Source of the DNA: Nitrospirota bacterium
Lineage (GTDB): Bacteria; Nitrospirota; Nitrospiria; Nitrospirales; Nitrospiraceae
Assembly (NCBI GenBank): GCA_028876065.1
Contig: JAGWTI010000005.1
Coordinates: forward strand, 1 to 64,000
Direction of reading: 5' to 3'
Length of the DNA stretch: 64,000 nucleotides
Shown here: positions 7,616 through 53,633 of the stretch, piece after piece
Position numbering within the stretch: position 1 is the stretch's first letter
How the letters are laid out: the number at the start of each line of letters is the position of its first letter
The notes under the pieces: model-generated
Seen by the model: only the letters and a program-made list of their open reading frames with translations
The model's database searches: none
What the model was told of the DNA's origin: nothing
Made by a program: the position numbers and the translations under genes

Positions 7616-9193
7616 GTGGATCCCCACGCTCAGATTGGCAGCCTCCATCCCCTCGAGATCAAGGTCCTGATCGCCCTCAGTCAGCATCAGGCACTCCAGT
7701 CTCGTCCGCTTCGCCAGGAGGATATCGGGCACGCGGCCGGCTTGGAGCCCTCCCAGCTCAGCATGGCCGTCGAATGGCTGCTGGCAAAAGCGCTGATCCG
7801 GGTGGAATCCGAAGTCGTCACGCCGATCGCGTCGTTGAGCAAGGTGGGCGAACGGTATTTCGAGAAGTATGCGCCGATCGAGCGCATTCTGTCGGTGGTT
7901 CGAGACGCCAAGCAGACAGGGAAGCGCGTCACGATCCAGGATCTTCAGGTGCGCGAGGGGCTGGAGCCCAGCGAAATGAGCGGGGCCGTCGGCAGCTTGA
8001 AGAAGGAAGGCGCGATTCGGATCGTCGCGGGCGGTCATGTGGAGGCCACGGGAGCGCCCAGTCCCCTGACCGAGTCGTTGCGCACTTTGCTGAAGGATCT
8101 TCACGGGGCGCCCAGGGAACTCCACGCGTTTCCCGAGGCCCTGCGCCGGGTCATCGAACAGTATGCCGTGAAGCGCGGCAATCCCAACGAACCCTTCCGG
8201 ATCGATGACCGGGTGGAACGCCGGTATCAGCTGACCGAGGCCGGACAGGACGCGGCGCGGGTGATTGCGACCCAGGGGTTGGGCGACGAGGTGTCGCAAC
8301 TGACGCCGGAGCTGCTCAAGGACGGGTCCTGGCGGACCAAACGCTTCCGGCAATACACGATCAGCCTGCGCCCGCCTCGTCTGTCCGCGGGACGGCGGCA
8401 TCCGTATCGGGAGTTCCTCGATTTGGTCAAACGCAAGCTGGTCAGCATGGGGTTCCAGGAAATGCGGGGCTCCCTTGTGGAAACCGAGTTCTGGAACATG
8501 GACGCGCTGTACATGCCGCAGTTCCATCCGGCGCGCGCCATCCACGACGTGTATTTCGTCAAGGCCCCGACCCACGCGCGGAACGACATGGTCACCGCGA
8601 CGCGGATCGCGCGTGTCGCCGCGACCCATGAATCCGGAGGCGAGACGGGGTCCACCGGCTGGGGGTATCACTATGATCGCGAGCGGGCTCAACGCCTGGT
8701 ATTGAGAAGCCAGGGCACGGCCGTGTCGGCCCACACGCTCGCCTCCAACCCGGCGGTCCCGGGGAAATATTTCTCGATCGCCCGCTGTTTCCGTTACGAC
8801 GCCGTGGACGCCACGCACGCCTGCGATTTCTTTCAGGTCGAAGGGATCGTGCTGGGCCCGGACATCAATTTTCGCACGCTGCTGGGGCTGCTGAACTTAT
8901 TCGCCGTCGAAATGGCGCAAGCGAAGGAAAGCCGGTTTCTGCCGGCCTATTTCCCTTTCACCGAACCGTCCGTCGAACTCCATGTCCGGCACCCCGAGCT
9001 GGGATGGATGGAGCTGGGCGGGGCCGGATTGTTTCGTCCGGAGGTGACGTTGCCGCTGGGCGTCGAGGTGCCGGTGATTGCCTGGGGGCTGGGGTTGGAC
9101 CGGATGGCCATGGTGGCGTTGGGCATCCACGATATTCGCGACTTGTTCTCCACCGACTTGGACATGTTGCGGACCACCCGCGGACACTTCTAA
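7616..9193 (+). CDS. pheS: Phenylalanine-tRNA ligase alpha subunit, archaeal/eukaryotic type
   Basis: 525 residues from GTG 7616, with GGAGG at 7607-7611. Bacterial PheS is usually about 340 residues with an N-terminal coiled coil. This one has about 220 residues of winged-helix repeats (LHPLEIKVLIALSQHQ, then GLEPSQLSMAVEWLLAKALI and GLEPSEMSGAVGSLKKEGAI), as in archaeal and eukaryotic cytosolic PheRS. The class II catalytic core follows: motif 2 region YFSIARCFRYD, FFQVEGIVLG, and motif 3 GWGLGLDRMAM. It pairs with the short PheT downstream. Horizontal origin is inferred; spirochaetes are the known bacterial example of archaeal-type PheRS. Confidence 0.93.
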   Translation: MDPHAQIGSLHPLEIKVLIALSQHQALQSRPLRQEDIGHAAGLEPSQLSMAVEWLLAKALIRVESEVVTPIASLSKVGERYFEKYAPIERILSVVRDAKQTGKRVTIQDLQVREGLEPSEMSGAVGSLKKEGAIRIVAGGHVEATGAPSPLTESLRTLLKDLHGAPRELHAFPEALRRVIEQYAVKRGNPNEPFRIDDRVERRYQLTEAGQDAARVIATQGLGDEVSQLTPELLKDGSWRTKRFRQYTISLRPPRLSAGRRHPYREFLDLVKRKLVSMGFQEMRGSLVETEFWNMDALYMPQFHPARAIHDVYFVKAPTHARNDMVTATRIARVAATHESGGETGSTGWGYHYDRERAQRLVLRSQGTAVSAHTLASNPAVPGKYFSIARCFRYDAVDATHACDFFQVEGIVLGPDINFRTLLGLLNLFAVEMAQAKESRFLPAYFPFTEPSVELHVRHPELGWMELGGAGLFRPEVTLPLGVEVPVIAWGLGLDRMAMVALGIHDIRDLFSTDLDMLRTTRGHF

Positions 9194-9198
9194 CCGAG

Positions 9199-9281
9199 AA
9201 CGATGAACGCGGAACGATAAATGATGAATGAAAGAGTCCGGACCTCTGCCATTCAGCATTCATCGTTCAGCATGCATCATT
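9199..9281. repeat. Intergenic imperfect hairpin, ATGATGAATG family (copy A)
   Basis: Left arm 9199-9236 and right arm 9244-9281 (about 38 bases each) are near-complementary around a short loop. Roughly 28 of 38 positions pair as Watson-Crick, and some others can form G-U pairs. The arms are made of the words GATGAA, GGAACGAT and AATGATGAATG. The element fills the pheS-pheT gap, starting 6 bases after the pheS stop and ending 14 bases before the pheT start. The same words and layout recur at 19530, 32885 and 47892. Confidence 0.8.
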
Positions 9282-9295
9282 GGATTCCGTAAGAC

Positions 9296-11029
9296 ATGCC
9301 GACCATTTCCATCAACCTGAAAGACTTCGAACAGCTCCTTGGGCCGAACGCGCTCAAGGAAGCCACGGCCGGCCGGAACGTGTTGACCGCCGGAAGCCTG
9401 GAACCCCTGCTGCCCCTAGTCAAGGGCGAACTGAAGGACCAAGATGGCGACCAGGGCGAAGTACGGGTTGAACTGCAGGACAGTAACCGGCCCGATCTCT
9501 GGTCGGCCGAAGGCGTCGCCCGTCAGATTCGGATCAAGCTGACCGGCGCCGCGCCGACCTATCCATTCTTCGGCGCGAAGCCGCAGGGAAAACGGCGGCT
9601 GCTCGTGACGCCGGGCCTGGAGAAGATTCGCCCCTATGTGGCGGCCTGCACGGCTTGCGGCTATGCGGTGACCGAGGCCGGCTTGGCGCAATTGATCCAG
9701 GTCCAAGAGAAGCTGGCCGACATCTTCGGGCGCAAGCGCAGCACGGTGTCGATCGGGCTCTATCGCCTCCCGGCGATCGTGTTCCCGGTCACCTACGATC
9801 TGGTCAGCCCCGAGGGGGCCCGATTTACCCCCCTGGGATTCGACGAGAAGATGTCGTTGCGCGAGATTTTGGCCGTGCATCCCAAAGGGTTGGAGTATGG
9901 GGCGTTGATCGCGGGCCATGATCGGGTACCGCTCCTGCGGGACGATGAAGGACAGGTCCTCTCGCTCCCTCCGATCATCAACAGCCGGGAGATCGGGGAA
10001 GTGCGGGTCGGAGACCGGGAGCTTTTCGTGGAAGTCACCGGCACCGATCTGTCGATGGTCGTGCTGACGTTGAACATTCTCGCGGTCAATCTGGCCGATC
10101 GAGGCGCGGTCATTGAACCGGTTCAAGTGACCTATCCCTACGAAACGGCCTTGGGGAAATCCATGCCCACGCCGCTGGATTTCGGCCGGCCGCAGTCCAT
10201 TCCCATCCAGGCGATCCGGGACGCGCTGGGAATGCCGTTGGAGTCGAGCCAGATCCGTGAAGCGCTCTCGGGGTACGGGTGCGAGGTCCGCGGAGCGAAG
10301 GACAAGCTGACGGTCAAGCTGCCCCCCTACCGGAACGATCTGATGCATGCGGTGGATGTGGTGGAAGACGTGGCGATCAGCCGCGGGTACGGGTCGTTTG
10401 AGCCGGTGATGCCGTCTCAGTTTACCGTGGGCGGCCTGTCTCGCGTGGAGCAGATGTCCGACCGGATACGCGATCTGATGGTCGGGATGGGCTTTCAAGA
10501 GATCATAGCCAATATCCTGGCCTCGCGGCAGGAGCTGGTCGAGCGCATGCGGCTTGCCGGGAGCGAGTGGGACCGCATCGTGGAAGTGGACAACGCCATG
10601 TCCCTGACCTTCAGCTGCCTGCGGCAGTGGATCGTGCCGTCGCTGCTGAGGGTGGAAGCGGCGTCCACCCGCTCCTTCTACCCGCACCGACTCTTCGAAG
10701 TCGGCGAGGTGGCGGTGCCTGACGAGACGGAAGAATTCGGATCGCGGACGCGAGTGGCACTCGGGGCGCTGATCGCCCATGCCACTGCGAATTTTTCCGA
10801 GGTCCATTCGAGTCTGGACCTTCTCTTGTTTTACTTGAATTGCCCGTACGGCCTGGAGCCGATCAGCCACCCGTCGTTTCTACCGGGCCGGGCCGGGCAG
10901 ATTCTGCTCCATGGGCACGCGATCGGCTTGATCGGCGAGCTGCACCCCGAAGTGCTGGAGCAGTGGCAGGTGACCATGCCGGCGGTGGTCTTCGAGCTGG
11001 AGGTGGATGCGCTGACGGAAAAGCCGTGA
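9296..11029 (+). CDS. pheT: Phenylalanine-tRNA ligase beta subunit, archaeal/eukaryotic type
   Basis: 577 residues against about 790-800 for bacterial PheT. The start MPTISINLKDFEQLLG matches archaeal PheT. A B3/4 editing-type region (LVTYPYETALGKSMPTPLDF precedes the B5 part; VTGTDLSMV lies in the core), a B5 domain (YRNDLMHAVDVVEDVAISRGYG) and the catalytic-like core are present. The bacterial N-terminal EMAP-like tRNA-binding domain and the C-terminal anticodon-binding domain are absent. It would form an (alpha-beta)2 enzyme with the preceding PheS. The gene converges on rplT. Confidence 0.93.
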   Translation: MPTISINLKDFEQLLGPNALKEATAGRNVLTAGSLEPLLPLVKGELKDQDGDQGEVRVELQDSNRPDLWSAEGVARQIRIKLTGAAPTYPFFGAKPQGKRRLLVTPGLEKIRPYVAACTACGYAVTEAGLAQLIQVQEKLADIFGRKRSTVSIGLYRLPAIVFPVTYDLVSPEGARFTPLGFDEKMSLREILAVHPKGLEYGALIAGHDRVPLLRDDEGQVLSLPPIINSREIGEVRVGDRELFVEVTGTDLSMVVLTLNILAVNLADRGAVIEPVQVTYPYETALGKSMPTPLDFGRPQSIPIQAIRDALGMPLESSQIREALSGYGCEVRGAKDKLTVKLPPYRNDLMHAVDVVEDVAISRGYGSFEPVMPSQFTVGGLSRVEQMSDRIRDLMVGMGFQEIIANILASRQELVERMRLAGSEWDRIVEVDNAMSLTFSCLRQWIVPSLLRVEAASTRSFYPHRLFEVGEVAVPDETEEFGSRTRVALGALIAHATANFSEVHSSLDLLLFYLNCPYGLEPISHPSFLPGRAGQILLHGHAIGLIGELHPEVLEQWQVTMPAVVFELEVDALTEKP

Positions 11030-11042
11030 CAAGGTGGAGTTA

Positions 11043-11070
11043 TGAGTGCTGGGCGATCACCCAACACTCA
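11043..11070. terminator. Hairpin between convergent pheT and rplT
   Basis: TGAGTG-c-TGGG (11043-11053) pairs with CCCA-a-CACTCA (11060-11070) around the loop CGATCA, giving ten pairs and one mismatch. It lies between two convergent genes, so it could end transcription from both sides, but no T-run follows on either strand. The GAGTG/CACTC words resemble those of the hairpin at 27181. Confidence 0.5.
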
Positions 11071-11087
11071 CAACCCACAATCCTCCG

Positions 11088-11447
11088 CTAGGCCGAGGCG
11101 GTCTGCTTGGCCAGGGTGGCCAGTTGGTCGAATCCCGCCGGGTCCTTGATCGCCATGTCCGACAGTACCTTCCGATCCAGCAGGACATTGGCCTTTTTCA
11201 GCGCGTTGATGAAGCGGCTGTAGGTCAAGCCGTGCTGGCGCACCGCCGCGCTGATCCGAGTGACCCAGAGTCGCCTGAAATTCCGCTTTCGCTTTTTCCG
11301 TTCGGCATAGGCATAGGTCTGGCCCTTGTCCACGGATTCCGTGGCGCTCCGGAACAGCCGGCTCTTTCCCCCGTACTGGCCCTTCGCCAGTTTAATCCGC
11401 TTTTTGCGTCGCTGCCTGGTCTTGGGACCGCCTTTTACGCGTGGCAT
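11088..11447 (-). CDS. rplT: 50S ribosomal protein L20
   Basis: 119 residues, start ATG 11447. MPRVKGGPKTRQRRKKRIKLAKGQYGGKS is the N-terminal tail that threads into 23S rRNA; RVTRISAA-type residues and the YSRFINALKKANV C-terminal globular region are complete. It is the last gene of thrS-infC-rpmI-rplT on the minus strand. L20 is known to repress its own operon in several bacteria; no specific leader mimic was identified here. Confidence 0.97.
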   Translation of the reverse strand: MPRVKGGPKTRQRRKKRIKLAKGQYGGKSRLFRSATESVDKGQTYAYAERKKRKRNFRRLWVTRISAAVRQHGLTYSRFINALKKANVLLDRKVLSDMAIKDPAGFDQLATLAKQTASA

Positions 11448-11493
11448 GTGTCGGTACTCCTCTTCCTCTCGGCTCGAAGCCGGTGTTGATGGC

Positions 11494-11697
11494 TCAGTTG
11501 TAGGGCAGCAGCCGGTTCATCGACAGCGTCATGGTGTGATCCACCGGTGCCGTGCCTTTGAGTCTCCGTTTGCGGTCGCGCGCCTTGCTGGTCAGGATGT
11601 GCCGCTTCCCGGCCTTGCGCCGCCGCAGCTTGCCGCTGCCGGTCCTGCTGAGGCGCTTGCTGGCGCCGCTGTGCGTTTTTAGTTTCAGGCCTGCCAT
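11494..11697 (-). CDS. rpmI: 50S ribosomal protein L35
   Basis: 67 residues from ATG 11697 ([15 protein letters not shown]), with a GGGAG ribosome site just upstream. The frame stays open to 11766, but that extension is unlike L35. The small basic protein has the family signature KTHSGASKR and ends MNRLLPYN. It sits between infC and rplT as usual; the gap to rplT is 46 bases. Confidence 0.96.
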
Positions 11698-11787
11698 GTG
11701 TTGTTCTCCCTTTCCAAGGTTCTTGCGCGTCGGGTGACGCCTCTCGCGGCGCCGGCTGCGCCGCATTGCGCGCGTGCGCCGCTCATT

Positions 11788-12294
11788 TCATTTGGGCGCG
11801 ACGATCATGATCAGACTGCGCCCTTCCATTCTGGGCGCGTACTCGATGGTCCCGTTTTCCATCAACTGCTGCATCACGGTGTTCATCATCGTGCGCCCCA
11901 TTTCCTGGTTCGCCATCTCGCGTCCGCGGAACGTGACCGTGACCTTGGTCTTGTTGCCGTCCGCCAGGAACTCTTTGACCTGGCGGATCTTGATCTCCAG
12001 GTCGTGTTTGTCGGTGCGGGGCCGCAGCTTGATCTCTTTGACCTGCGTGGACTTTTGGTGCTTCCGACTCTGATGCTCCTTTTTCTGGAGCTCATACTTG
12101 TACTTGCCGTGATCCATGATCCGGCAGACCGGCGGCACCGATGTCGGCGCCACTTCGACGAGATCGTAACCCAGATCCTGGGCTTTCTTGAACGCATCGG
12201 GGGTGGGCAGGATGCCCAGTTGCTCACCCTCGGGTCCGATCACACGCACCTCCCGGACTCGGATTTCACGATTCACACGCAGTTTGGGGACGAT
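11788..12294 (-). CDS. infC: Translation initiation factor IF-3, AUC start
   Basis: 168 residues if translation starts at ATC 12294-12292. A Shine-Dalgarno-like GAGAGGTG ends just before it with ideal spacing, and the reading VPKLRVNREIRVREVRVIG matches the usual IF3 N-terminus. The first in-frame GTG (12276) would lie about two dozen bases from that ribosome site and clip the N-terminus. IF3 rejects non-canonical starts, and infC of many bacteria uses AUU, AUC or AUA so that IF3 limits its own synthesis. Both domains are complete (EGEQLGILPTPDAFKKAQ; KIRQVKEFLADGNKTKV; GREMANQEMG). Confidence 0.93.
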   Translation of the reverse strand: MVPKLRVNREIRVREVRVIGPEGEQLGILPTPDAFKKAQDLGYDLVEVAPTSVPPVCRIMDHGKYKYELQKKEHQSRKHQKSTQVKEIKLRPRTDKHDLEIKIRQVKEFLADGNKTKVTVTFRGREMANQEMGRTMMNTVMQQLMENGTIEYAPRMEGRSLIMIVAPK

Positions 12295-12316
12295 ACGGCA
12301 CCTCTCAGGAAAAAGG

Positions 12317-14254
12317 TTATTCGGACGCCATGCTCTTGGCCAGGTCGGCCCGGATTAGCTCGATCGCCGCCGGGACCGCCAGGCTGCCCTTGTCTTCGCC
12401 GCCGCGTCTGCGGATCGACACGGACTCGGCCTGTTGCTCGCGGGCGCCAACGACGAGCATATAGGGAATTTTGGCCTTTTCTGCTTCACGAATTTTATAG
12501 CCGGCTTTTTCGTTGCGCAGATCAGCTTCGACACGAAGCCCGGCCGCTTTGAGCAGAGCCATGACCTTCGACGCATAGTCATGCTGGTGCTCGCTGATGG
12601 GCAGCACGATGGCCTGGACCGGAGCGAGCCAAGTCGGGAACGCCCCGGCGTAATGCTCTACCAAAATGCCGAAGAAGCGCTCGATGGACCCCATCAGGGC
12701 TCTGTGGATCATGATCGGCTGGTGGGCTTTCCCGTCCTCGCCGGTGTAAGTCAGCCCGAACCGTTCGGGGTTATTGAAATCCACCTGGACCGTGGAACAT
12801 TGCCAAGCCCGTCCAAGCACGTCCTTGATCTTGATGTCGATCTTGGGGCCGTAGAAGACGCCCTCGCCCGGGTCAATCTCGTAGGCCACGCCCCGTCCCT
12901 TGAGAGCCGCTTCCAACGCGCTGGTCGCCAAGGCCCAGTTCTCGGGCGACCCGACCGCCTTGTCGGGCTTGGTGGATACATAGACCTCGAACTCGGAAAA
13001 GCCGAACGTCCGGAGCACGAAAAAAGTAAAGTCCAGGACCCGGCTGACCTCCGTCTCGATCTGATCGGGACGGCAGAACAGATGGGCGTCGTCTTGGGTA
13101 AATCCGCGTACCCGTAACAGGCCATGCAAGACGCCGGTCCGCTCGTACCGGTAGACGGTTCCCAGCTCGCCGTACCGGATCGGCAGGTCCCGATAGCTTC
13201 TCAGATGGGACTTGTAAATCATGATATGGAACGGGCAGTTCATCGGCTTGAGCTGGTACTCGCTGGCCTCCACCTTCATCGTGGCGAACATGTTGTCCCG
13301 GTAATAGTCCACGTGCCCGCTGGTTTTCCACAAATCCAACCGCGCAACATGGGGAGAGTAGACCAGCTCGTAGCCCTGCTTCAGGTGCTGTTCGCGCCAG
13401 AAATTTTCGATGAGGAGACGAATCAGGGCGCCCTTGGGGTGCCAGAGGACCAGGCCGGGCCCGATCTCGTCCTGAATCGTGATCAGATCGAGCTCTTTGC
13501 CCAGCTTCCGATGGTCACGACGCTTGATCTCTTCGAGCTTCGCGAGGTGCGCATCCAGCTCTGCCTGCGTTGGGAACGAAGTCCCGTAGATCCGCTGCAA
13601 CATCGGGTTGCGCTCGTCGCCCCGCCAGTAGGCGCCGGCGCTGGTGAGCAGCTTGAAGGCTCCGACTCGTCCGGTGGTCGGCAGATGCGGCCCGCGACAG
13701 AGGTCGATGAACTCACCCTGGTCATAGAGGGACACGGTTTCATCTTCGATGCCCTCGAGGATTTCCGCCTTATACAACTCGCCGCGCTGTTTGAAGAAAT
13801 TGATGGCATCCCAGCGGCGCATCTCCAACCGCTTGAAGGGGCGATTGGCCTTGATGAGTTCCACGGCGCGCGCTTCGATCTTAGCCAGATCGTCCGGAGT
13901 GAAAGGCCGTTCGAAGGCAAAGTCGTAATAGAAACCTTCTTCAATGGCCGGGCCGATGGTGACTTGGGCCGAGGGAAACACTTCCTTGACCGCCTGGGCC
14001 ATGATGTGGGTGCTGCTGTGTCGATAAACCTCTTTGCCCTCCGGGGAGGCGAAGGTGATCGGCTCCACCGTGGCGCTTTCGGTCAGGCTCCAGTTCAGGT
14101 CTACGGGCTTGCCGTTGACCTTTGCGGCCAGGACGTCAGGGCCGAGGGTGCCGCCCGTCCCTCGAAGGGCCTCCCCGACAGTGCAGCCGGCCGGCACTTG
14201 ACGGGTGGTCCCATCCAGGAAGGTAATCTGAATCTGTTGGGTCTCGAGAGGCAT
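12317..14254 (-). CDS. thrS: Threonine-tRNA ligase
   Basis: 645 residues from ATG 14254; TTG 14263 is the alternative. Domains in order: TGS (ITFLDGTTRQVPAGCTVGEAL), editing SAD domain with zinc-type His/Cys residues (HSSTHIMAQAV and IDLCRGPHLP), class II catalytic core (motif 2 TVYRYERTGVLHGLLRVRGF; MNCPFH; motif 3 HRALMGSIERFFGILVEHY) and the C-terminal anticodon-binding domain. It heads the infC-rpmI-rplT operon, with 22 bases between its stop and the infC start. No T-box elements are seen upstream. Confidence 0.97.
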   Translation of the reverse strand: MPLETQQIQITFLDGTTRQVPAGCTVGEALRGTGGTLGPDVLAAKVNGKPVDLNWSLTESATVEPITFASPEGKEVYRHSSTHIMAQAVKEVFPSAQVTIGPAIEEGFYYDFAFERPFTPDDLAKIEARAVELIKANRPFKRLEMRRWDAINFFKQRGELYKAEILEGIEDETVSLYDQGEFIDLCRGPHLPTTGRVGAFKLLTSAGAYWRGDERNPMLQRIYGTSFPTQAELDAHLAKLEEIKRRDHRKLGKELDLITIQDEIGPGLVLWHPKGALIRLLIENFWREQHLKQGYELVYSPHVARLDLWKTSGHVDYYRDNMFATMKVEASEYQLKPMNCPFHIMIYKSHLRSYRDLPIRYGELGTVYRYERTGVLHGLLRVRGFTQDDAHLFCRPDQIETEVSRVLDFTFFVLRTFGFSEFEVYVSTKPDKAVGSPENWALATSALEAALKGRGVAYEIDPGEGVFYGPKIDIKIKDVLGRAWQCSTVQVDFNNPERFGLTYTGEDGKAHQPIMIHRALMGSIERFFGILVEHYAGAFPTWLAPVQAIVLPISEHQHDYASKVMALLKAAGLRVEADLRNEKAGYKIREAEKAKIPYMLVVGAREQQAESVSIRRRGGEDKGSLAVPAAIELIRADLAKSMASE

Positions 14255-14498
14255 AGGGTTCAAATAAGAAAAGGCACCATGGTTGCCGCGGGACTCGTCT
14301 CTTGGAACCTCTTCGCTCCTACGGGAGGCGTTCCGAAATCACCTGCGGCCAGACTGGCTTGCAGAAACCTTCAACGCATGGATGTCACTGCGCCTGTGGT
14401 CCTCTGTAGCCTGCGACCTTGCATCTGATTCCGTCTCCCGCAATCGAAGGGGTTCTCGTCCCCGGCGACCTGATGCCCTTATTCCACCAACAACAAAA
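14255..14498 (-). other. thrS leader between tRNA-Val and thrS, no gene seen
   Basis: About 244 bases lie between the 3' end of tRNA-Val and the thrS start, both on the minus strand. I see no coding region, no T-box sequence, no strong promoter and no good ribosome site in front of thrS. The segment could be a long leader transcribed from the tRNA promoter. Confidence 0.4.
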
Positions 14499-14573
14499 TG
14501 GTAGGCGCGGACGGTCTTGAACCGTCGACCTCTACCGTGTCAAGGTAGCGCTCTCCCCCTGAGCTACGCGCCT
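14499..14573 (-). tRNA. tRNA-Val (GAC)
   Basis: 75 bases on the minus strand. Acceptor AGGCGCG pairs with CGCGCCT; D-arm GCTC/GAGC; anticodon stem CTACC/GGTAG with loop TTGACAC (anticodon GAC); T-arm GACGG-TTCAAGA-CCGTC; discriminator A and encoded CCA. All stems pair perfectly. Confidence 0.96.
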
Positions 14574-14592
14574 AACGTTACGGGGCCATGCT

Positions 14593-14617
14593 AATATAGC
14601 CCGGTCTGCACTGTCAA
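14593..14617 (-). promoter_or_regulatory. Candidate promoter of tRNA-Val
   Basis: On the minus strand a perfect TTGACA (14617-14612) is followed by TATATT (14598-14593). The spacing to TATATT is short (13 bases); the overlapping TATTAG gives 15. The tRNA begins about 20 bases downstream. The -35 is strong, the -10 assignment uncertain. Confidence 0.4.
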
Positions 14618-14702
14618 GAATTTCGCCTGGATAGAGGCCGGTAAATGAGACCGACTGTGTCTCTGTTTCTGCTGTGGCTTGTCCTGTCGGCGCGGCTTGG
14701 TA

Positions 14703-15287
14703 CTAGGTGTGGTGTGCTCGTTCCCGTTTGACGGAAATCCGGAACTCGTTGATTTTCTTGCGGAGCGTATTGCGGTTCATGCCCAGCAGATCCGCAGCTT
14801 GCATCTGATTCCCGTTGGTTTCTCTCAAGACGAGCGTAATCAAGGGTTCTTCCACGGCCTTAATCAGAATCGGGTGCAAATCGCGGGCGGAACCGTTCTT
14901 CATCCCCCTGACGAAGTCCCTCAACTTCGATTTGATATAGTCGTCCAGCGAAAAATTCGGATCGGCATGGTTGGCCGACGGTCCTGCGCCATTCGACAGG
15001 GCGTGGAACATACGGTGTGTCTGCCGAAGGGTTGCCCGTGCCCCGGCGATAACGACCGTTTTGGCCGGATCGATGTGCCGTAAAAGTTCCGCCAACTCCT
15101 GGGGTTGGTTCCGCTTGGTTTCGATGATCACGCCGTCAAAGGTCCGCTTGGCCGCAGATCGAGGCAACGACGCCAAGTCCTTGGCTACGGTGATCGAGGC
15201 ATCCTTGAAGTCCCGTTTGATTTGGGCCTGGAGGTCGGGATCGGCAGTGAGCAATAGAATGCTGACGACGGATGTGCGGATCGACAT
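14703..15287 (-). CDS. Fis-type DNA-binding regulator with degenerate receiver domain
   Basis: 194 residues from ATG 15287. The C-terminus (LITLVLRETNGNQMQAADLL followed by GMNRNTLRKKINEF) is a Fis/NtrC-family helix-turn-helix. Residues about 8-100 read like a receiver fold: SILLLTADPDLQAQI as strand 1 with part of the acidic cluster, DGVIIET as strand 3, TVVIAGARAT as strand 4. The position that normally holds the phosphoacceptor Asp is Glu in DGVIIE, so it cannot be phosphorylated in the usual way. There is no AAA+ domain, so it is not a sigma-54 activator. The target genes are unknown. Confidence 0.8.
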   Translation of the reverse strand: MSIRTSVVSILLLTADPDLQAQIKRDFKDASITVAKDLASLPRSAAKRTFDGVIIETKRNQPQELAELLRHIDPAKTVVIAGARATLRQTHRMFHALSNGAGPSANHADPNFSLDDYIKSKLRDFVRGMKNGSARDLHPILIKAVEEPLITLVLRETNGNQMQAADLLGMNRNTLRKKINEFRISVKRERAHHT

Positions 15288-15482
15288 GAAGGCACCACGA
15301 AGAAGAGGGCGGGATTATCCTCCACAGGATTCCGCCAAGTCAACGATTAAATCGGCCCATCTCGCTAGGGCCAGCCGATGGACAAGCAACTGTAGTGCCA
15401 CAGCTCCGCGGCCAGGGCTTTGTATAATGTCGGCCAGTTTTGGCGCTATCTTGATTCAGGGGACGGGAATAGGATCTGAAAA
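15288..15482. other. Intergenic region between divergent Fis-type and sulfur genes
   Basis: No coding region seen. A perfect -10 hexamer TATAAT lies at 15423-15428 on the plus strand, without a convincing -35 at normal distance. It could drive the small open frame at 15483. Confidence 0.4.
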
Positions 15483-15719
15483 TTGGCACGCGATGACAGG
15501 TTTTGTTCTTTTTGCGCCAAGGAATCGGAAGCACGTCAGTATGTCATTGACCATGCTAACATGCCCGAGGCTGAAAAAACAGAATCCGTCACGTGCTGGC
15601 GCCGAAGGCAGAGGACGGAACCCAAAGCAAAGACCATCATGGGTGTATGTGCTCAGGCAAAGAAGATTGAAAATAAAATAACCCTGCGGCCCGAGAGACG
15701 ACTTGACATTCCTGGCTAA
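15483..15719 (+). CDS. Possible small zinc-finger protein, ClpX-like CxxC, doubtful
   Basis: An open frame of 78 residues from TTG 15483. The start LARDDRFCSFCAKESEARQY resembles the N-terminal zinc finger of ClpX (CSFCGK...), but the second CxxC needed for zinc binding is not found; only isolated Cys follow (VTCW, MGVC). The segment is less GC-rich than neighbouring genes and overlaps the promoter of the Rrf2 gene at its 3' end. It may be a decayed or frameshifted zinc-finger gene, or not a gene. Confidence 0.3.
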   Translation: MARDDRFCSFCAKESEARQYVIDHANMPEAEKTESVTCWRRRQRTEPKAKTIMGVCAQAKKIENKITLRPERRLDIPG

Positions 15720-15733
15720 CGACCTGTATAAAT
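15704..15733 (+). promoter_or_regulatory. Strong sigma-70 promoter of the Rrf2/sulfur operon
   Basis: Perfect TTGACA (15704-15709) and TATAAA (15728-15733) with an 18-base spacer, one of the best promoters in the window. Transcription would start near 15740, just before the palindrome at 15745 and about 40 bases ahead of the Rrf2 start codon. Confidence 0.75.
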
Positions 15734-15744
15734 TACCACCTCTT

Positions 15745-15761
15745 ATTTCCTATCGGAATAC
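15745..15761. promoter_or_regulatory. Candidate Rrf2 (CymR-like) operator
   Basis: TATTTCC-TAT-CGGAATA is an imperfect 17-base palindrome just downstream of the predicted transcription start and upstream of the Rrf2 gene. Known CymR/Rrf2 operators have a similar TTCC...GGAA core. A second, looser repeat (CCTAT...ATAGG, 15750-15773) overlaps it. Autorepression at this site is inferred. Confidence 0.5.
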
Positions 15762-15777
15762 TCGTGAATAGGGAATT

Positions 15778-16230
15778 GTGAAAATCTCGCTGAAGGCCAC
15801 ATATGGAATTCTCGCGGCGCTGGATTTGGCGTTGAATGGCGGCACATCGCCTGTGCAGGCGAAAATGATTGCCAAGCGTCAGGCCATTCCGCTCCGTTTT
15901 CTCGAGCAGGTGCTGAATGTAATGAAGAACGCCGGGTTGGTCGATAGCCTTCGCGGTGCCCAGGGAGGCTATCTGTTGGGAAAACTGCCGGAAGAAATCT
16001 CGTTGGCTGATATTGTGGAGGCGTTGGACGGGACCCTCTCGCAGCCGAACGGCCACAGAGGGACCACACGTCAGCTACAGGGACTGTCCAAACCGGCCTT
16101 GCTCTTGGCCGATGTCTGGGAGCAGGTCCGCCAGGCGGAACTGGGCGTCTTGACCTCCGTGACGCTTCGCGAACTGGCGGAGCGGCACCAACAGCTTGAT
16201 CGTGAACGAACCCTCATGTACCACATCTGA
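15778..16230 (+). CDS. Rrf2-family repressor, cysteine-free (CymR-like)
   Basis: 150 residues from GTG 15778. The winged-helix Rrf2 signature is clear: MKISLKATYGILAALDLAL, then AIPLRFLEQVLNVMKNAGLV and SLRGAQGGYLLGK. The protein has no cysteine at all, so it cannot bind an Fe-S cluster as IscR, NsrR or RsrR do. That places it with cluster-free members such as CymR, which represses sulfur metabolism with a cysteine synthase partner. It lies upstream of the sulfate assimilation operon and behind a strong promoter with a palindrome, so it is the likely regulator of that operon and of itself. Confidence 0.88.
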   Translation: MKISLKATYGILAALDLALNGGTSPVQAKMIAKRQAIPLRFLEQVLNVMKNAGLVDSLRGAQGGYLLGKLPEEISLADIVEALDGTLSQPNGHRGTTRQLQGLSKPALLLADVWEQVRQAELGVLTSVTLRELAERHQQLDRERTLMYHI

Positions 16231-16235
16231 ATCCA

Positions 16236-16282
16236 AAGAAGCCGTCAGCCTGCAGCCCATAGCTGACAGCTGAGCGCTTCTT
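16236..16282. repeat. Intergenic hairpin, TCAGC/GCTGA word family (copy G)
   Basis: Left arm 16236-16255 and right arm 16263-16282 (20 bases each) pair at about 15 positions around a seven-base loop; the ends AAGAAGC/GCTTCTT are perfect. It begins 6 bases after the Rrf2 stop and lies before the sulfite reductase start. It could attenuate read-through or set mRNA ends inside the operon. Confidence 0.6.
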
Positions 16283-16302
16283 AGCTATTGCGAGGCTTGC
16301 TT

Positions 16303-18801
16303 ATGAGTGTCGCGCGAACGACGCAACCTGTAGCCATACAGACCGTTCCCATTCCGCCGGACATTCTCGAAGAAATCGAGACCTTCGAAGGCGAAGCCCA
16401 GCGCCTCCAGGCCGGGGACCTGTCCAACGACCTGTTCAAACCCTTCCGGTTGCAGCATGGGATTTACGGGCAGCGCCAGCCCGGCGTGCAGATGGTGCGG
16501 ATCAAGATCCCCTTCGGCGGGTTGAATGCCAACCAGTTGCGGCGCGTGGCCGAACTGGCGGACCGGTATGGGACCGGCGTGGGACACGTGACGACGCGCC
16601 AGGACATCCAGCTCCATTTCGTCGAGTTGAAGGACGTCGGCACGGTCATGCGCGGGCTGGCCGAAGTCGGCGTGACCACCAGAGAGGCTTGCGCGAACAC
16701 GGTGCGCAACGTGACGGCCTGCCACCTGGCCGGGGTCTGCCAGGGCGAGGTGTTCGACGTGACGCCCTATGCGAAAACCGTGGCCTTGCACCTGTTGCGG
16801 AACCCGCTCAACCAGAGCCTGCCGCGGAAATTCAAGATTGCCTTCTCCGGCTGCCGTCACGACTGCGCCCTGACGCCGATCCACGACGTGGGGCTCCTGG
16901 CGGCCAAGCGGGACGATGGCACCATCGGATTCCGCATGGTCGTCGGGGGCGGGCTCGGCTCGGCTCCGCGCATCGCGCAGCTGCTGCGGGAGTTCGTCCC
17001 GATGAACGAATTGATCCCCACGATCGAGGCGGTCATCAAAGTCTTCGATACGTTGGGCAACCGCAAGAACCGCAACAAGGCCCGGATGAAATTCGTGATC
17101 GACAAGCTGGGCTTCGACGAGTTCAAGCGCCGCTGGGAAGAGGCCTACGTCAGCCTGGGCCATGCCAGGCCGGATCATGCCCCCATCAAGCTGCTCGCTC
17201 ATGCCGACGAGCCGGTGCCGCTCATCATGCCGACTCCCTCGTCCGCCTCTGCGGGCAACGGCAACGGATCGCCGGGCAACGGCCACGGGGCGGCTGAAAC
17301 GCCCTATCAGATGTGGAAGCGGACCAACGTGGTGCCCCAGAAGCAGCCCGGCTATGCGGCGGCGGTTATCAAGCTCCAGATGGGCGATTTGACCGCGCAG
17401 CAGATGCGGTTCATCGCGGCCCTGGCCGAGGACTATTCCAACGGAAATTTGCGAACCACCATCAACCAAAACCTGATTCTGCGATGGGTGCCGGAGACGA
17501 AATTGCCGGCCCTCTATGAAGACCTGGCGGCGCAGGGCCTGGCTGATCCCGGCGCGGAACTGGTGGAAGACATCATTGCCTGCCCCGGCACGGACACCTG
17601 CGGCCTGGGCATCACCTCGTCGAAGGGATTGGCGCGCGCCATGGCGGAAGTCTTCCCGCCCGGCCGTGTGCCTGAAGACCTGAAGGATGTCAGCGTCAAG
17701 ATCAGCGGCTGCCACAACTCCTGTGCCCAGCACCACATCGCGACAATCGGTTTGCACGGCGTGGGCAAGCGTCTGGGCGACCATGTGGCGCCCCACTATG
17801 AACTGCACTTGGGCGGGCAGGTAAACGGGACGGCCAAGATCGGCCAGATGACCGTGAAACTGCCGGCCAAAAGCGTGCCGGCGGCCGTCACCCATCTCTT
17901 GGCGGTCTACCGCCGTGATCGGCTGCAGGGTGAGAGCTTTCCTTCGTTCATCGACCGCGCCGGGAAGATCGCGCTCAAAGAGGAATTGATCCCCTATACG
18001 ATCGTGCCGACATTCGAGGAGGACCAAACCTTTTATTACGACTGGGAAGGGGAAGAGGAATTTATCCTGGAGGATCTGGGGCCGGGGGAATGTGCCGGCG
18101 GGGCTTTGGAAATGATCGGTGACCGGATCCTCGAGGCGGAGCAGGAACTCTATCAGGCCAAGTTGCTGGCCGAGAAACACCAGTATTCCGTCTCGGTCAA
18201 CAAGGCCTACCGGGCCGTGCTGGCCGCGGCCAAGGCCCTGCTGGTCACCGAGGGGCTGGATCCGGCCACGGACGCCGAAACCTTTACCGAGTTCGAGCGG
18301 CGGCTGGGCCAACGTAGCATCGTGCCCGCCCAATATAAGAACCTGGGCGCTCAGGCGGGTGACCTGGGCCAGAAGGACAGCAGCCCGGAATTCGCTCAGG
18401 CCAAGATTGCCTTCGCCCGCGGATTCGTGGAAGTGTGCCGGGCGGCGACCGAGCAGATCGGCAAGGACTTGAAATTGGCGCAAGCCGGCGAGGGCGAGGC
18501 AGCCGCAACGCAGGCGGCGGATGCCAAGTCCCTTGCCCCGCCCCAACCAGTTGCGGCAGGGCCGGACGCATCGGTCTACGATCTCCGCGGCGTAGCCTGC
18601 CCGCTCAATTATGTGAAGACCAAGTTGAAGCTGGAAATGATGGAGGCGGGCGAGCGGCTGGAAGTCTGGCTGGACGCGGGTGAGCCGATCAAGAACGTGC
18701 CGATGAGCCTGCGCAACGACGGACACAAGATTTTGTTGGAAGAGCCGTTGGAGCCGGAAGCAGCCCATTTCAAAGTGTTGGTGGAGAAAGTCGAAGGCTA
18801 G
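16303..18801 (+). CDS. Ferredoxin-type nitrite/sulfite reductase fused to a TusA domain
   Basis: 832 residues from ATG 16303, with GAGG at 16292-16295. The N-terminal ~550 residues are a duplicated siroheme [4Fe-4S] reductase. The second half has the ligand pattern C427-x5-C433 (CPGTDTC) and C470-x3-C474 (GCHNSC). Unusually, the first half has the same spacing, C140-x5-C146 (CHLAGVC) and C184-x3-C188 (GCRHDC). A helical segment with a central HEPN-like look (about 600-725) is followed by a TusA/SirA domain with the conserved Cys766-Pro767 (YDLRGVACPLNYVKTKL). Operon context (APS reductase, cysD, cysNC) favours six-electron reduction of sulfite to sulfide; the TusA Cys could take up the product as persulfide. 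That last step is inference. Confidence 0.88.
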   Translation: MSVARTTQPVAIQTVPIPPDILEEIETFEGEAQRLQAGDLSNDLFKPFRLQHGIYGQRQPGVQMVRIKIPFGGLNANQLRRVAELADRYGTGVGHVTTRQDIQLHFVELKDVGTVMRGLAEVGVTTREACANTVRNVTACHLAGVCQGEVFDVTPYAKTVALHLLRNPLNQSLPRKFKIAFSGCRHDCALTPIHDVGLLAAKRDDGTIGFRMVVGGGLGSAPRIAQLLREFVPMNELIPTIEAVIKVFDTLGNRKNRNKARMKFVIDKLGFDEFKRRWEEAYVSLGHARPDHAPIKLLAHADEPVPLIMPTPSSASAGNGNGSPGNGHGAAETPYQMWKRTNVVPQKQPGYAAAVIKLQMGDLTAQQMRFIAALAEDYSNGNLRTTINQNLILRWVPETKLPALYEDLAAQGLADPGAELVEDIIACPGTDTCGLGITSSKGLARAMAEVFPPGRVPEDLKDVSVKISGCHNSCAQHHIATIGLHGVGKRLGDHVAPHYELHLGGQVNGTAKIGQMTVKLPAKSVPAAVTHLLAVYRRDRLQGESFPSFIDRAGKIALKEELIPYTIVPTFEEDQTFYYDWEGEEEFILEDLGPGECAGGALEMIGDRILEAEQELYQAKLLAEKHQYSVSVNKAYRAVLAAAKALLVTEGLDPATDAETFTEFERRLGQRSIVPAQYKNLGAQAGDLGQKDSSPEFAQAKIAFARGFVEVCRAATEQIGKDLKLAQAGEGEAAATQAADAKSLAPPQPVAAGPDASVYDLRGVACPLNYVKTKLKLEMMEAGERLEVWLDAGEPIKNVPMSLRNDGHKILLEEPLEPEAAHFKVLVEKVEG

Positions 18802-18810
18802 GGGGTAACC

Positions 18811-19530
18811 GTGGCGGATCAGGCGGTCAAGACCAGACCCTCCGATGAGGAACTGAAGGCGCTGAGCGACTCTTTCGAGTCCAAACAGCCGCAGGACGTG
18901 CTCGCCTACGCCTTGGAGCGGTATCGCGGACGCATTGTCCTGGCCTGCAGCTTCGGAGCGGAAGACGTGGCGCTGGTGGACATGATCCATCGGCTGGACC
19001 CCAACGCGCCGCTCTTTTACCTGGATACGGACTTCCTGTTTCCCGAGACCCATGAGGTGCGGGACCGGATTGTGGCCAAGTACGGGTTGCGTCCCGCGCA
19101 AGTGATCCAGGTGAAATCGTTGCTGACGCCCGAGCAGCAGGCGGCTCAATATGGAGAGCGACTCTGGGCCAGGCAGCCGGACCAATGTTGCCAGCTCCGC
19201 AAGGTCGAGCCGTTGACCCGGGTGCTGGGCGGCTACGAGGCCTGGATCACCGGCGTCCGGCGCGACCAGGCGCCGACCCGCGCCAACGCTGGTTTGGTGG
19301 AATGGGACAAGAAATTTCAGTTGGTCAAGTTCAACCCGCTGGCTCGCTGGACGGTGGCGGAGGTCTGGGCCTACATCAAGGTCTACGAAGTGCCTTACAA
19401 CCGGCTGCACGACCGCGACTATCCCAGCATCGGCTGCACCCATTGCACGGCGCCGGTCCAGCCCGGTGCCGACCCGCGATCCGGCCGATGGCAGAACTTC
19501 GCGAAAACCGAGTGTGGCTTGCACAAGTAA
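18811..19530 (+). CDS. cysH: Assimilatory adenylyl-sulfate (APS) reductase
   Basis: 239 residues from GTG 18811, ten bases after the sulfite reductase stop. It reduces APS to sulfite with thioredoxin. The PP-loop-like start SFGAEDVALVDM and the RRDQAPTR substrate segment are present. The CysCys-xn-CxxC motif (C126, C127, C209, C212) that binds a [4Fe-4S] cluster marks it as an APS rather than a PAPS reductase, and the catalytic Cys235 sits in the C-terminal ECGLHK. A functional APS kinase is therefore not required for this route. Confidence 0.95.
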   Translation: MADQAVKTRPSDEELKALSDSFESKQPQDVLAYALERYRGRIVLACSFGAEDVALVDMIHRLDPNAPLFYLDTDFLFPETHEVRDRIVAKYGLRPAQVIQVKSLLTPEQQAAQYGERLWARQPDQCCQLRKVEPLTRVLGGYEAWITGVRRDQAPTRANAGLVEWDKKFQLVKFNPLARWTVAEVWAYIKVYEVPYNRLHDRDYPSIGCTHCTAPVQPGADPRSGRWQNFAKTECGLHK

Positions 19531-19593
19531 ACGCTGAATGATGAATTCAACCGGAACCGTCATTCATCACTCATCATTCAGCATTCATCATTC
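19530..19593. repeat. Intergenic hairpin, ATGATGAATG family (copy B)
   Basis: The left arm begins at the last base of the cysH stop: about 15 bases of 19530-19544 match the complement of 19571-19585 (GCTGAATGATGA against TCATCATTCAGC) with one mismatch. Further ATTCATC words extend the right side to 19593. It lies between cysH and the DsrE-like gene, whose ribosome site GAGAG follows it. Confidence 0.7.
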
Positions 19594-19610
19594 GCGGTGA
19601 GGTTCGAGAG

Positions 19611-20024
19611 ATGAAGAAACTGGCCGTGATCGTGACCGGGGGAAGCTACAACAATCTGCTCCAGGTCTGCGAATTGGTGCGCATTGCCGCTGCATCCGGC
19701 GCGCAGGTCAGCGTGCTGTTTCGGGACGAAGCGGCGTCCAAATTGACGCATGACAAGGTAAAGCAGTTGACGTTCTCAGACGCCTACAAAGGGCGCGAGT
19801 CGAGGGTCCGCGATCTGCTGCGGGAGCGGAAGCGGCATGACGTCCCGGCGGTCCTGCGGGAGGTCAAAGAAGCGGGAGACGTCAAACTTGCGATTTGCCG
19901 CGACACGCTCGAGTACTTCGAGATAGGCGTGGAACAGTTGCTGCCCGAACTGGACGAGGTGCAGAAGGCCGAGGCCTTCTGGAAGGAAGCGGTCGCGCCG
20001 GCGGATCAGGTGCTGACGTTTTAA
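19611..20024 (+). CDS. DsrE/TusD-like sulfur relay protein
   Basis: 137 residues from ATG 19611. The fold signature is that of DsrE-like proteins: strand-loop MKKLAVIVTGGSYNNLLQVC, AAASGAQVSVLFRDEA, and a single late Cys (Cys96 in KLAICRDTLEYFE) at the position where DsrE/TusD proteins carry the persulfide-forming Cys. Between cysH and cysD, it may accept or deliver sulfur with the TusA domain of the sulfite reductase. Family assignment is reasonable; the partner is inferred. Confidence 0.78.
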   Translation: MKKLAVIVTGGSYNNLLQVCELVRIAAASGAQVSVLFRDEAASKLTHDKVKQLTFSDAYKGRESRVRDLLRERKRHDVPAVLREVKEAGDVKLAICRDTLEYFEIGVEQLLPELDEVQKAEAFWKEAVAPADQVLTF

Positions 20025-20062
20025 GACAAAAATGAGAGCGAATGACTAATGGTTGACGGCTT

Positions 20063-21127
20063 ATGACGGAATTCTCGCAATTCATCGCCAAAATCGGCAA
20101 GGGTCAGAAGGCCTCCAAGGATCTGACCTGGGAAGAGGCCAAGCAGGCGATGCGGCTGCTCGTCGAAGGCCAGGCCACACCGGCGCAGATCGGTGCGTTT
20201 CTGCTCGCGATGCGGGTGAAGATGGAGTCGATCACGGAATTGGCGGCCTTCACCTCGGCGGTACGCGAGTATGTCCCGCCTCTGCCGGTGCCGCGTCAGC
20301 TGCCGCTGGTGGATCTGCCGACGTACGCAGGGAAGCAAGATACTTTCCATGTGTCCGTGGGGGCCGCGATTGTGGCCGCAGCTGCCGGCGCCTCGATCCT
20401 GATGCATGGGCATGAAGGCATTCCGGAACGGCCCGGGACCGTCGAGATATTGGTCAAACTCGGCATCCCGACCGACTTGCCACCGAAGCAGGTCGCCGAG
20501 GAAGTGACCGCGAAGGGGTTTGCCTATCTGGATATTTCTCTTTACCACCCGCCGGTCGGCCGGTTTCTGGATCTGCGGCGCGAGTTGGGGGTCAGGAGCC
20601 TCTTTCATCCGGTGGCGAAAATGCTGAACCCGGCCAGGGCCGCCTCGCAGGTGATCGGCCTGAGCCATCCCCCCTACTTCGAAAAGACGGCCGAGGCCTT
20701 GCTCATGCTGGGTAGCAAGCGGGCGTTGATCATCCGAGGATCGGAGGGCGAGCCGGAGCTGTCCATCGCGTCGGCGACCAAGGTCCTCGAAGTCCGTGAG
20801 GAGCGCATCACCCCATTGACGCTTGCGCCTAAAGATGCGGGGCTCCCTCTGGGAAGCTTTCAGACCATGGCCGGGTTTCCCCCGGGGCAGCTGGACCAGG
20901 AGGCGACCTTGTTGCGGCGCATCCTGCACCGAGAGGTACCAGGCGGCCAGCGGGATTGGGTGATCTTGAACGCGGCGATGTTGCTCTATGCAGCCGGCAA
21001 AGCGGCCTCGATTGCAGCGGGAGTTCCGGTCGCGCAACAAGCGATGGACAGCGGCGCCGCGGCGCGAAAGCTGGCCGAACTCACGACGGCCGGAGAACCG
21101 GCTGTCGCAGCTTCGGCCAAATCCTGA
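20063..21127 (+). CDS. Anthranilate phosphoribosyltransferase-like protein (TrpD2/YbiB type)
   Basis: 354 residues from ATG 20063. The helical N-terminus (DLTWEEAKQAMRLLVEGQATP) and alpha/beta domain follow the TrpD fold. Canonical TrpD motifs are altered: the PRPP-binding GTGGD is replaced by YAGKQD, and KHGN by MHGHEG. This matches TrpD2 (YbiB) paralogs, which do not make tryptophan and in E. coli bind nucleic acid. It sits inside the sulfate assimilation operon, between the DsrE-like gene and cysD, and is not near any other trp gene. Its role there is unknown. Confidence 0.82.
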   Translation: MTEFSQFIAKIGKGQKASKDLTWEEAKQAMRLLVEGQATPAQIGAFLLAMRVKMESITELAAFTSAVREYVPPLPVPRQLPLVDLPTYAGKQDTFHVSVGAAIVAAAAGASILMHGHEGIPERPGTVEILVKLGIPTDLPPKQVAEEVTAKGFAYLDISLYHPPVGRFLDLRRELGVRSLFHPVAKMLNPARAASQVIGLSHPPYFEKTAEALLMLGSKRALIIRGSEGEPELSIASATKVLEVREERITPLTLAPKDAGLPLGSFQTMAGFPPGQLDQEATLLRRILHREVPGGQRDWVILNAAMLLYAAGKAASIAAGVPVAQQAMDSGAAARKLAELTTAGEPAVAASAKS

Positions 21128-21184
21128 GCGCCGAGTTGATGTCCGGCAACTTGAAACTAAACACTCAAAACTAAAAACTCGATC
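21128..21184. other. AT-rich spacer with repeated AAACTAAA words
   Basis: The 57 bases between the TrpD2-like gene and cysD hold a weak inverted repeat (AGTTG/CAACT, about 21136-21155) and then the direct words GAAACTAAA and AAAACTAAAAACT. It resembles the other word-repeat spacers in this window but the arms are short. Confidence 0.35.
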
Positions 21185-21982
21185 ATGAAGCACCTCCGCC
21201 AGCTCGAAGACCAAAGCGTCTACATTCTGCGGGAAGCCTACAAACATTTCGACAACCTGGCCATGCTCTGGTCCATGGGGAAGGACTCGACCGTGCTGCT
21301 CTGGCTGGCGCGCAAGGCTTTCTTCGGCCACGTGCCGTTTCCGCTGCTCCACGTGGATACCAGTTACAAGATTCCCGCGATGATCGAGTACCGGGACCGG
21401 TTGGCCCGGGAATGGCGGTTGAACTTGGTCGTCGGCCAGAACAAGGAAGCCCTTGCGGCCGGCATGAACCATACGCTGGGGCGAGTCGCCTGCTGCACGG
21501 CGCTCAAGACGAACGGGCTGAAGCAACTCATCGAGCAGAAGGGCTACACGGGTATCATTTTGGGCGTGCGGGCCGACGAGGAGGGCACGAGAGCCAAGGA
21601 GCGATACTTCTCGCCGCGCGACAAGCACGGAGACTGGGACTTCCGGGATCAGCCGCCGGAGCTCTGGGACCAGTTCAAGACCGCGTTCCCGCCGGGCACG
21701 CATATCCGGATTCACCCGCTGCTGGATTGGACGGAGATCAACATCTGGGAATACATCAAGTACGAGAACATTCCCTTTATGGACCTCTACCTGGATAAAG
21801 GCGACGGCACGAGATACCGCAGCCTGGGCTGCGCCCCCTGCACCACCCCGATCAAGTCCACGGCCAAGACGGTGGATGACATCCTCGAAGAGCTGCGCCA
21901 CACCACGGTCGCCGAGCGGGCCGGGCGGGCCCAGGACGAGGGGCGCGGGATGGAACTCCTGCGCAAAGACGGGTACATGTGA
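21185..21982 (+). CDS. cysD: Sulfate adenylyltransferase subunit 2
   Basis: 265 residues from ATG 21185. It is the ATP pyrophosphatase-type catalytic subunit that forms APS from sulfate and ATP. The PP-loop is intact ([18 protein letters not shown]), followed by [31 protein letters not shown], the [10 protein letters not shown] segment and GCAPCTTPI. Its stop overlaps the start of cysNC (TGATG), giving stoichiometric coupling of the two subunits. Confidence 0.96.
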
Positions 21983-23826: not shown

Positions 23827-23831
23827 GTGGT

Positions 23832-23860
23832 TTGACTCCCTAGAAACCCTGTGCTACCGT
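23832..23860 (+). promoter_or_regulatory. Possible promoter before the Mrp gene
   Basis: TTGACT (23832-23837) and TACCGT (23855-23860) are 17 bases apart in the 81-base gap after cysNC. The -35 is good, the -10 poor. It would give Mrp expression independent of the sulfur operon. Confidence 0.35.
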
Positions 23861-23907
23861 GACCTCTCGCTTGAACGTCTATGTCCCTCAGCCAGGGGTG
23901 AGATGGT

Positions 23908-24825: not shown

Positions 24826-24851
24826 GCCCTGCAGACCCAAGAGGAGTTGTC

Positions 24852-25604: not shown

Positions 25605-25646
25605 TGCCCGAATCGCCCCGACAGAGGCCGATCGGCACAGGCACGT

Positions 25647-25958: not shown

Positions 25959-25993
25959 CGAACGCACGGATTCCTTGTGCGGGGTCTCCACCT

Positions 25994-26329: not shown

Positions 26330-26348
26330 AGGTGTGCAGGATGTGCCG

Positions 26349-26377
26349 TTGACACGTTCCGAGTGGTGTGTTAGAAC
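26349..26377 (+). promoter_or_regulatory. Promoter of yebC-ruvAB with overlapping inverted repeat
   Basis: Perfect TTGACA (26349-26354), 17-base spacer, then TAGAAC (26372-26377). An inverted repeat GTGGT...ACCAC overlaps the -10 and could bind a repressor; no LexA-type box is recognised. The yebC start is 46 bases further on. Confidence 0.6.
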
Positions 26378-26422
26378 CACCGCATAAATACAGACGATTT
26401 TGCGATTTGGAGGGGAGCGACC

Positions 26423-27175: not shown

Positions 27176-27180
27176 AAGCT

Positions 27181-27289: not shown

Positions 27290-27296
27290 TTAATTG

Positions 27297-27905: not shown

Positions 27906-27908
27906 CCG

Positions 27909-32875: not shown

Positions 32876-32884
32876 AACACAATG

Positions 32885-32972: not shown

Positions 32973-32981
32973 AATTTGCTT

Positions 32982-53630: not shown

Positions 53631-53633
53631 TCC

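Follow-up and report, generated by a model that had tools for sequence, protein, structure and literature searches.

Heptad-Word Hairpins Following Stop Codons in a Nitrospirota Genome and the Replacement of Their Words at Orthologous Junctions

What are the word-repeat hairpins that follow stop codons in this stretch of DNA, and is it their RNA structure that has kept them there? A sequence-only reading of the window (the whole 64,000-nucleotide stretch analysed) had placed four of them at 9199, 19530, 32885 and 47892, and all four exist at these sites, the third beginning at 32881. All are written in the word AAYGNNG. On the plus strand, one lies between pheS and pheT (9199–9281; arms 9199–9236 and 9244–9281, loop of 7 nt) with its first base 6 nt past the pheS stop, one between cysH and a dsrE-like gene (19530–19592) with its first base coinciding with the last base of the cysH stop, and one between the DAHP synthase gene (aroF) and tyrA (32881–32976; arms 32881–32911 and 32946–32976), again beginning 6 nt past the upstream stop. 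The fourth, on the minus strand (47892–47974), separates an MFS/Atg22-like gene from a gene of 131 aa; its arm divides into the heptads AATGATG, AATGCGG, AATGCAG, AATGATG and a final AATG, and it does cover the upstream stop, as had been proposed, since the outermost arm repeat contains the stop of the 699-aa MFS-like gene. Pfam bore out the identities of most flanking genes (PheS, PheT, PAPS reductase (CysH), DsrE, DAHP synthase, prephenate dehydrogenase and Atg22/MFS), whereas the "desulforedoxin-like" label of the 131-aa gene found no Pfam match.

What had been missed was the 7-nt period, the existence of further words genome-wide, and a fifth element, alike in build and placement but in another word, GTGATGA, between a yebC-like gene and ruvA (27181–27289, plus strand; arms 27181–27209 and 27261–27289). 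Together with this element, the four reported hairpins include the four top-scoring inverted repeats of the window; the 19530 hairpin had a lower score in ungapped inverted-repeat scoring. In all five, the self-match was 0.63–0.84 at lag 7 and did not exceed 0.45 at the other lags between 3 and 12, and their RNA folding z-scores were −3.0, −1.8, −4.7, −3.6 and −2.4. Four lesser elements were also found in the window: a short heptad hairpin 3′ of pheT (11037–11076; GAGTTATGAGTGCTGGG / CCCAACACTCACAACCC) at a junction that our home-made gene caller made convergent, a short hairpin in a TCAGC word (16236–16282; AAGAAGCCGTCAGCCTGCAGC / GCTGACAGCTGAGCGCTTCTT), a GC-rich hairpin in a TCGGC/TCAGC word (38397–38433) with drifted copies in three congeners, and a weaker periodic inverted repeat in an ATTGACG word (51933–52010) that is kept in congener G003. 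The only Rfam 15 matches above gathering score in the window were three tRNAs, and the hairpins had no match. Dispersed repeats of other kinds are present as well, one at 53604–53816, just downstream of tRNA-Leu (53547–53630), that recurs in numerous partial copies here and in congeners G001 and G003, and others at 59671–59733 and 62637–63178, with copies elsewhere in this genome (e.g., G000:C2:34229-34771, 89% identity) and in congeners.

A genome-wide class with many words

The window hairpins are members of a larger class of word-repeat hairpins. Each arm consists of degenerate copies of a word in tandem, with a sharp period of 7 nt (8 nt in one word family, AAAGTC), and in 1.32 Mb of this genome 48 inverted repeats had at least 70% arm self-match at lag 7, as compared to 0–4 at each of the other lags. 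Our hairpin counts cover that 1.32 Mb and 0.85 Mb of G003, with part of the sampled contigs picked for containing hits; on this sample there are at least 80 intergenic hairpin copies in this genome, and symmetric scoring gave 88 heptad inverted repeats here and 44 in G003. Among sampled gaps of 60–130 nt, word hairpins make up 23 of 56 in this genome and 23 of 57 in G003 (∼40%). The AAAGTC octad hairpins escape the ungapped detector and are revealed by a gapped palindrome search.

The words typically keep about five fixed and two variable positions and, in this genome, include AAYGNNG, GTGATGA, ATGGCNN, TCAGCNN, TCAGTNN, GAGTTNT, GGTTCGG, GTGAAGC, GAAGGCG and AATTTTC. A family defined by ATGATGAATG, as first described, is thus real but too narrow. 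With up to one mismatch, AATGATGAATG matches this genome 200 times (101+99 on the two strands), as compared to 0+2 for a reversed control. Matches of this type were present in all 41 genomes searched, in fewer or similar numbers in the nearest relatives. AATGATG hairpins were found in Bacteroidota, Acidobacteriota, Planctomycetes, Chloroflexi, Verrucomicrobia, Betaproteobacteria, Thiotrichaceae and others, and also in cultured Spirosoma and Larkinella. The AAGTC octad is at background in this genome (5 matches, control 4) and common in three congeners (32, 50 and 110 matches); word vocabularies therefore turn over at genome scale, and the vocabulary is lineage-specific, differing even between congeners. 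Two other genomes of the same family, G007 and G022, have very many AAGTC octads (279 and 126 matches, respectively), and with only 25 AATGATG matches G007 appears to have shifted its vocabulary.

Position, polarity and word replacement

The hairpins sit directly after stop codons. The proposal that the family hugs upstream stops holds genome-wide: between co-directional genes the median start is 2 nt past the upstream stop in this genome and 4 nt in G003, with the end 14–18 nt before the next start. A hairpin typically begins 0–10 nt past the stop codon; 69 of 86 lie within −12 to 15 nt of it, 30 of 86 overlap it, and in some the word itself provides the stop. Divergent gaps are avoided (8 of 120 vs. 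177 of 912, p = 3e-4) and convergent gaps are somewhat over-represented (26 of 120), as judged from genes called by a simple script that makes some antisense errors and misjudged two window sites as divergent. In gaps with spare room, the hairpin tends to the stop side (12 of 16, p = 0.08).

A hairpin reads alike from both strands, and which word occupies its 5′ arm is a property of the element. The polarity of the words is fixed, the G-richer array forming the 5′ arm, with TCAGC and TCAGT words as the exceptions. GAATG was on the 5′ arm in 51:0 cases in this genome and G003 together, and in 58:2 in the genus with a 14-base pattern. In loci from other phyla the ratio was 98:1, although full independence holds only for copies outside the seed, as the loci had been retrieved by a pattern of this polarity; in the same loci, other words had more G than C on the 5′ arm in 50:6 cases, and aperiodic inverted repeats were balanced. 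The non-GAATG words of G003 had no polarity bias.

No full-length copying has occurred between elements. Among 80 elements, no pair shared 80% identity over 80% of length, and their loops were mutually as unrelated as shuffled loops, which argues against the pasting of a fixed mobile sequence.

Comparison with three congeners (G001, G002 and G003) reveals that the stem-loop recurs at a given junction while its sequence does not, the word often being replaced. At pheS/pheT, the AATGATG-type word is kept in G002, a TCAGT-word hairpin stands in G001, and a 34–37-nt remnant is left in G003. The cysH/dsrE junction has the same word in G002 and G003 and a TCAGC-word hairpin in G001; at yebC/ruvA, where this genome has GTGATGA, all three congeners have an AAYGNNG/AATGATG-type hairpin. 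The MFS-gene junction (47892) retains its word in G002 and carries an AAAGTC octad hairpin in G001 and G003, and the junction 3′ of pheT likewise has an AAAGTC octad hairpin in G003. The aroF/tyrA hairpin is kept in all three congeners, and G003 has no counterpart of the 16236 hairpin at the orthologous junction.

Of the 144 junctions for which G003 has an ortholog, 9 had the same word, 9 were swapped, 8 had a hairpin in this genome only, 5 in G003 only, 106 in neither, and 7 were borderline. Where this genome has a hairpin that was not inherited in common, G003 has one at 9 of 17 junctions, as compared to 5 of 111 without a hairpin here (p = 1.9e-6). The excess remains without the nuo operon (p = 0.004) and when length is controlled by taking gaps of 50–160 nt (9 of 17 vs. 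3 of 45 hairpin-free gaps, p = 1.7e-4). The nuo operon (G000:C89) has hairpins in several words at most of its junctions, 5 of which are swapped in G003; the nuoB/nuoCD junction, for example, has an ATGGC word here and an AAAGTC octad in the congener. At a fair share of junctions the hairpin has disappeared altogether and is therefore not essential, and alleles without one often have gaps as short as −1 to 34 nt.

Some related observations deserve recording. Word hairpins occur at the junctions of two paralogous complex I-like (nuo) clusters, L249 (G000:C89:1-18842) and L033 (G000:C11). A 242-nt repeat of another kind (GGCTGTTCAAAAAGGCCGTCC...) at L300:9154-9396 in G003 fills a junction that holds a TCAGC hairpin in this genome (L255:11511-11607); CAGGATGNTCAAAAAGGCC inverted repeats resembling it are found at L040:6054 and L050:1619, and a related one at L045:5172.

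Selection on the stem and the competing explanations

The sequence-only reading had taken the pairing of the arms to be kept by compensatory and G-U changes, and this is not what was found. In 12 conserved orthologous hairpins, 222 Watson-Crick pairs were unchanged, 33 single changes broke a pair, and there was one compensatory double change, where about one is expected under independence in this small sample. With symmetric scoring on the mRNA strand, G-U pairs were no more frequent than A-C mismatches, their mirror image (72 vs. 88 and 33 vs. 41). These direct tests of covariation and G-U pairing thus give no support for compensatory RNA selection, and the arms pair mainly through the word that they share, in-register pairing at the variable word positions being weakly above shuffled (61 vs. 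54.0±3.1, p = 0.018). Structure nevertheless seems to matter in another way, as an entire stem can give way, at the same junction, to one of different sequence that is again self-complementary, and divergence is lower in stems than in loops (0.094 vs. 0.170 in orthologous hairpins, p = 0.002). A constraint on the stem is present; it may act on DNA or on RNA, and its cause may be selection or arm-to-arm copying.

We tentatively favor, at a probability of roughly 0.45, the explanation that these are locally written intergenic stem-loops whose arms repeat a single degenerate word of 7 nt (sometimes 8 nt) in inverted orientation and that persist between cistrons. Each hairpin would be written in place and not inserted as a ready-made mobile sequence; slippage, for example, could generate a tandem array, after which the nascent strand would fold back and be copied. 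Such stems may persist between cistrons where a strong stem-loop right after a stop is useful or harmless, and the word would be largely free, so that the vocabulary of a lineage could drift or new words could take over, the stem-loop itself recurring. A likely role, as judged from sequence, is that of an intercistronic stem-loop separating cistrons: it could shield the upstream mRNA end, favor intercistronic processing and uncouple translation of the next gene. In published screens, structure just after a stop lowers translational coupling (PMC12548453). Period, polarity and unique loops are all as the slippage and fold-back model would have them; that distant phyla use the same words is not, and local writing leaves it unexplained. 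Against this explanation stand the lack of a compensatory excess and of a G-U over A-C excess on the mRNA strand, and junctions could be re-occupied merely from tolerating insertions.

This last point leads to a rival that is quite possible, namely that the hairpins are a neutral or selfish by-product, arising genome-wide and surviving only where 70–100 extra bases are tolerated, above all in the gap between stop and ribosome-binding site, so that re-occupation would reflect tolerance rather than need. The frequent presence/absence differences with tiny empty gaps (−1, 1, 7, 7, 17 and 18 nt), the avoidance of divergent promoter gaps and the missing compensatory excess all agree with it, and template switching from arm to arm could keep stems alike in the absence of selection. 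It accounts less well for swaps above the rate in equally long hairpin-free gaps, for the tendency toward the stop where room is to spare, and for the slower change of stems. Spread by a transposase as REP/BIME- or MITE-like mobile elements would account for dispersed, intergenic palindromes that differ in presence and are patchy across phyla; however, no near-identical pair exists, the loops are unrelated, Y1_Tnp is absent from the near-complete G001 and G003 despite their 121 and 181 word matches, and no fixed end motif or target duplication was seen in 14 presence/absence or swapped junctions. Inspection of aligned junctions for a foot tag of the GTAG/CGTC type likewise found no shared foot motif. 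REP elements with TnpA-REP are thus largely excluded, and we consider mobility of this general kind very improbable.

In another view, a CsrA-, S1- or cold-shock-like protein would bind the arms as tandem sites, reading the 5-nt word core in single-stranded RNA or DNA at a 7-nt step. About five fixed and two variable positions per word would suit such a reader, and MacGregor proposed one for TAACTGA repeats (PMC4679880); however, a reader of one word would not tolerate the wholesale replacement of words at the same junction or their differences between congeners, and the word cores are largely buried in the stem, so this explanation appears improbable. Transcription terminators or attenuators inside operons would be expected after stops, and convergent gaps are somewhat over-represented, but the hairpins have no U-tract, their outer stem is AT-rich and weak, and they are found within operons such as nuo. 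Of 13 terminator-like sites in 9000–28000, none coincides with the three hairpins of that stretch. This explanation, too, appears very improbable. The earlier judgment that the elements resemble neither REP or ERIC sequences nor intrinsic terminators is borne out by the lack of shared sequence among copies and of coincidence with terminator patterns in 9000–28000.

Three narrower ideas were rejected. AATGATG has TGA in every frame, but an all-frame stop-codon role does not extend to the other 5′-arm words ATGGC, TCAGC and GAAGG, which are without stops. A reverse transcriptase as the writer was discarded on the absence of RVT_1 from all four congeners, and a RAYT on its absence from G001 and G003; given that the Y1 transposase is missing from G001 and G003 and RVT_1 from the four congeners, neither is required.

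Known relatives and significance

REP/BIME and REPIN elements resemble the present hairpins as dispersed intergenic palindromes with plausible effects on mRNA 3′ ends. Those elements have a conserved sequence of 20–40 nt and a GTAG-type tag and are tied to TnpA-REP; among the heptad hairpins, only the vocabulary is common to the copies. MIRU of mycobacteria are likewise small repeats at operon junctions touching stop and start codons, but they have a small ORF and a conserved sequence and lack inverted heptads (PMC12548453).

The best precedent for heptad hairpins with word replacement is the P6b stem of the group I intron in the tRNA-Leu(UAA) gene (trnL) of cyanobacteria (Nostoc), which, like the stems here, consists of degenerate complementary heptads (PMC4476775). 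Its Class I (TDNGATT) and Class II (NNTGAGT) are unrelated words in the same structural place, and repeated, independent class replacement has been documented (PMC4476775). Replacement of the word at the same place is found here too, in 9 swaps among 144 orthologous junctions; the P6b stem differs in being confined to one intron locus with a folding role, as compared to many loci, more than eight words, positions between protein genes, and many phyla.

Three other repeats look like parts of the same phenomenon. The portions of the report on Xanthomonas GGGAATC heptamers drawn on here describe degenerate, intergenic repeats that form close inverted pairs in 70–75 cases; two species have them mostly at the same junctions, with strong variation in length and sequence (PMC4692102). 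Those repeats differ in having one G4-forming word and many unpaired arrays, and these portions describe no word replacement or polarity rule (PMC4692102). The "global regulator binding site" classes of Geobacter metallireducens are tandem 7- and 8-mers paired on opposite strands with variable spacing, much as here; in the relevant parts of that source they are read as protein sites, with few fixed words and no comparison of orthologous junctions (PMC2700814). TAACTGA repeats of Beggiatoaceae, Cyanobacteria and Bacteroidetes share the heptad unit, the intergenic location, the patchy spread across distant phyla and the lack of a known mechanism, but they are nearly all direct, lie mostly just upstream of start codons and form no hairpins (PMC4679880). 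In a literature search conducted mostly outside subscription journals, we found no account of heptad hairpins in many words at the junctions of operons, nor of word swapping or polarity in them. The class belongs to a known but unexplained kind of repeat, of which it is a variant with many words and a genome-wide spread, and sequence-based family searches (Rfam, REP finders, one-word covariance models) will miss most of it.

Heptamers are the most abundant intergenic tandem repeats in 7,006 prokaryote genomes, with no clear clue to their function (PMC6344855). Finding heptads as swapped, polar, non-copied hairpins after stop codons turns this statistical oddity into a testable system, and it raises the questions of which process writes the hairpins and of stem-loop control of expression in operons such as nuo. 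It is a rather doubtful idea that bacteria of many phyla share an unrecognised hairpin-writing process, in which a polymerase-driven or enzymatic step would lay down a G-richer 7- or 8-nt array, copy back the second arm and rewrite operon junctions in the vocabulary of the lineage, with selection keeping the stem-loop and not the sequence. If true, such a shared process would connect the unexplained excess of prokaryotic heptamers with a specific structure, position and polarity.
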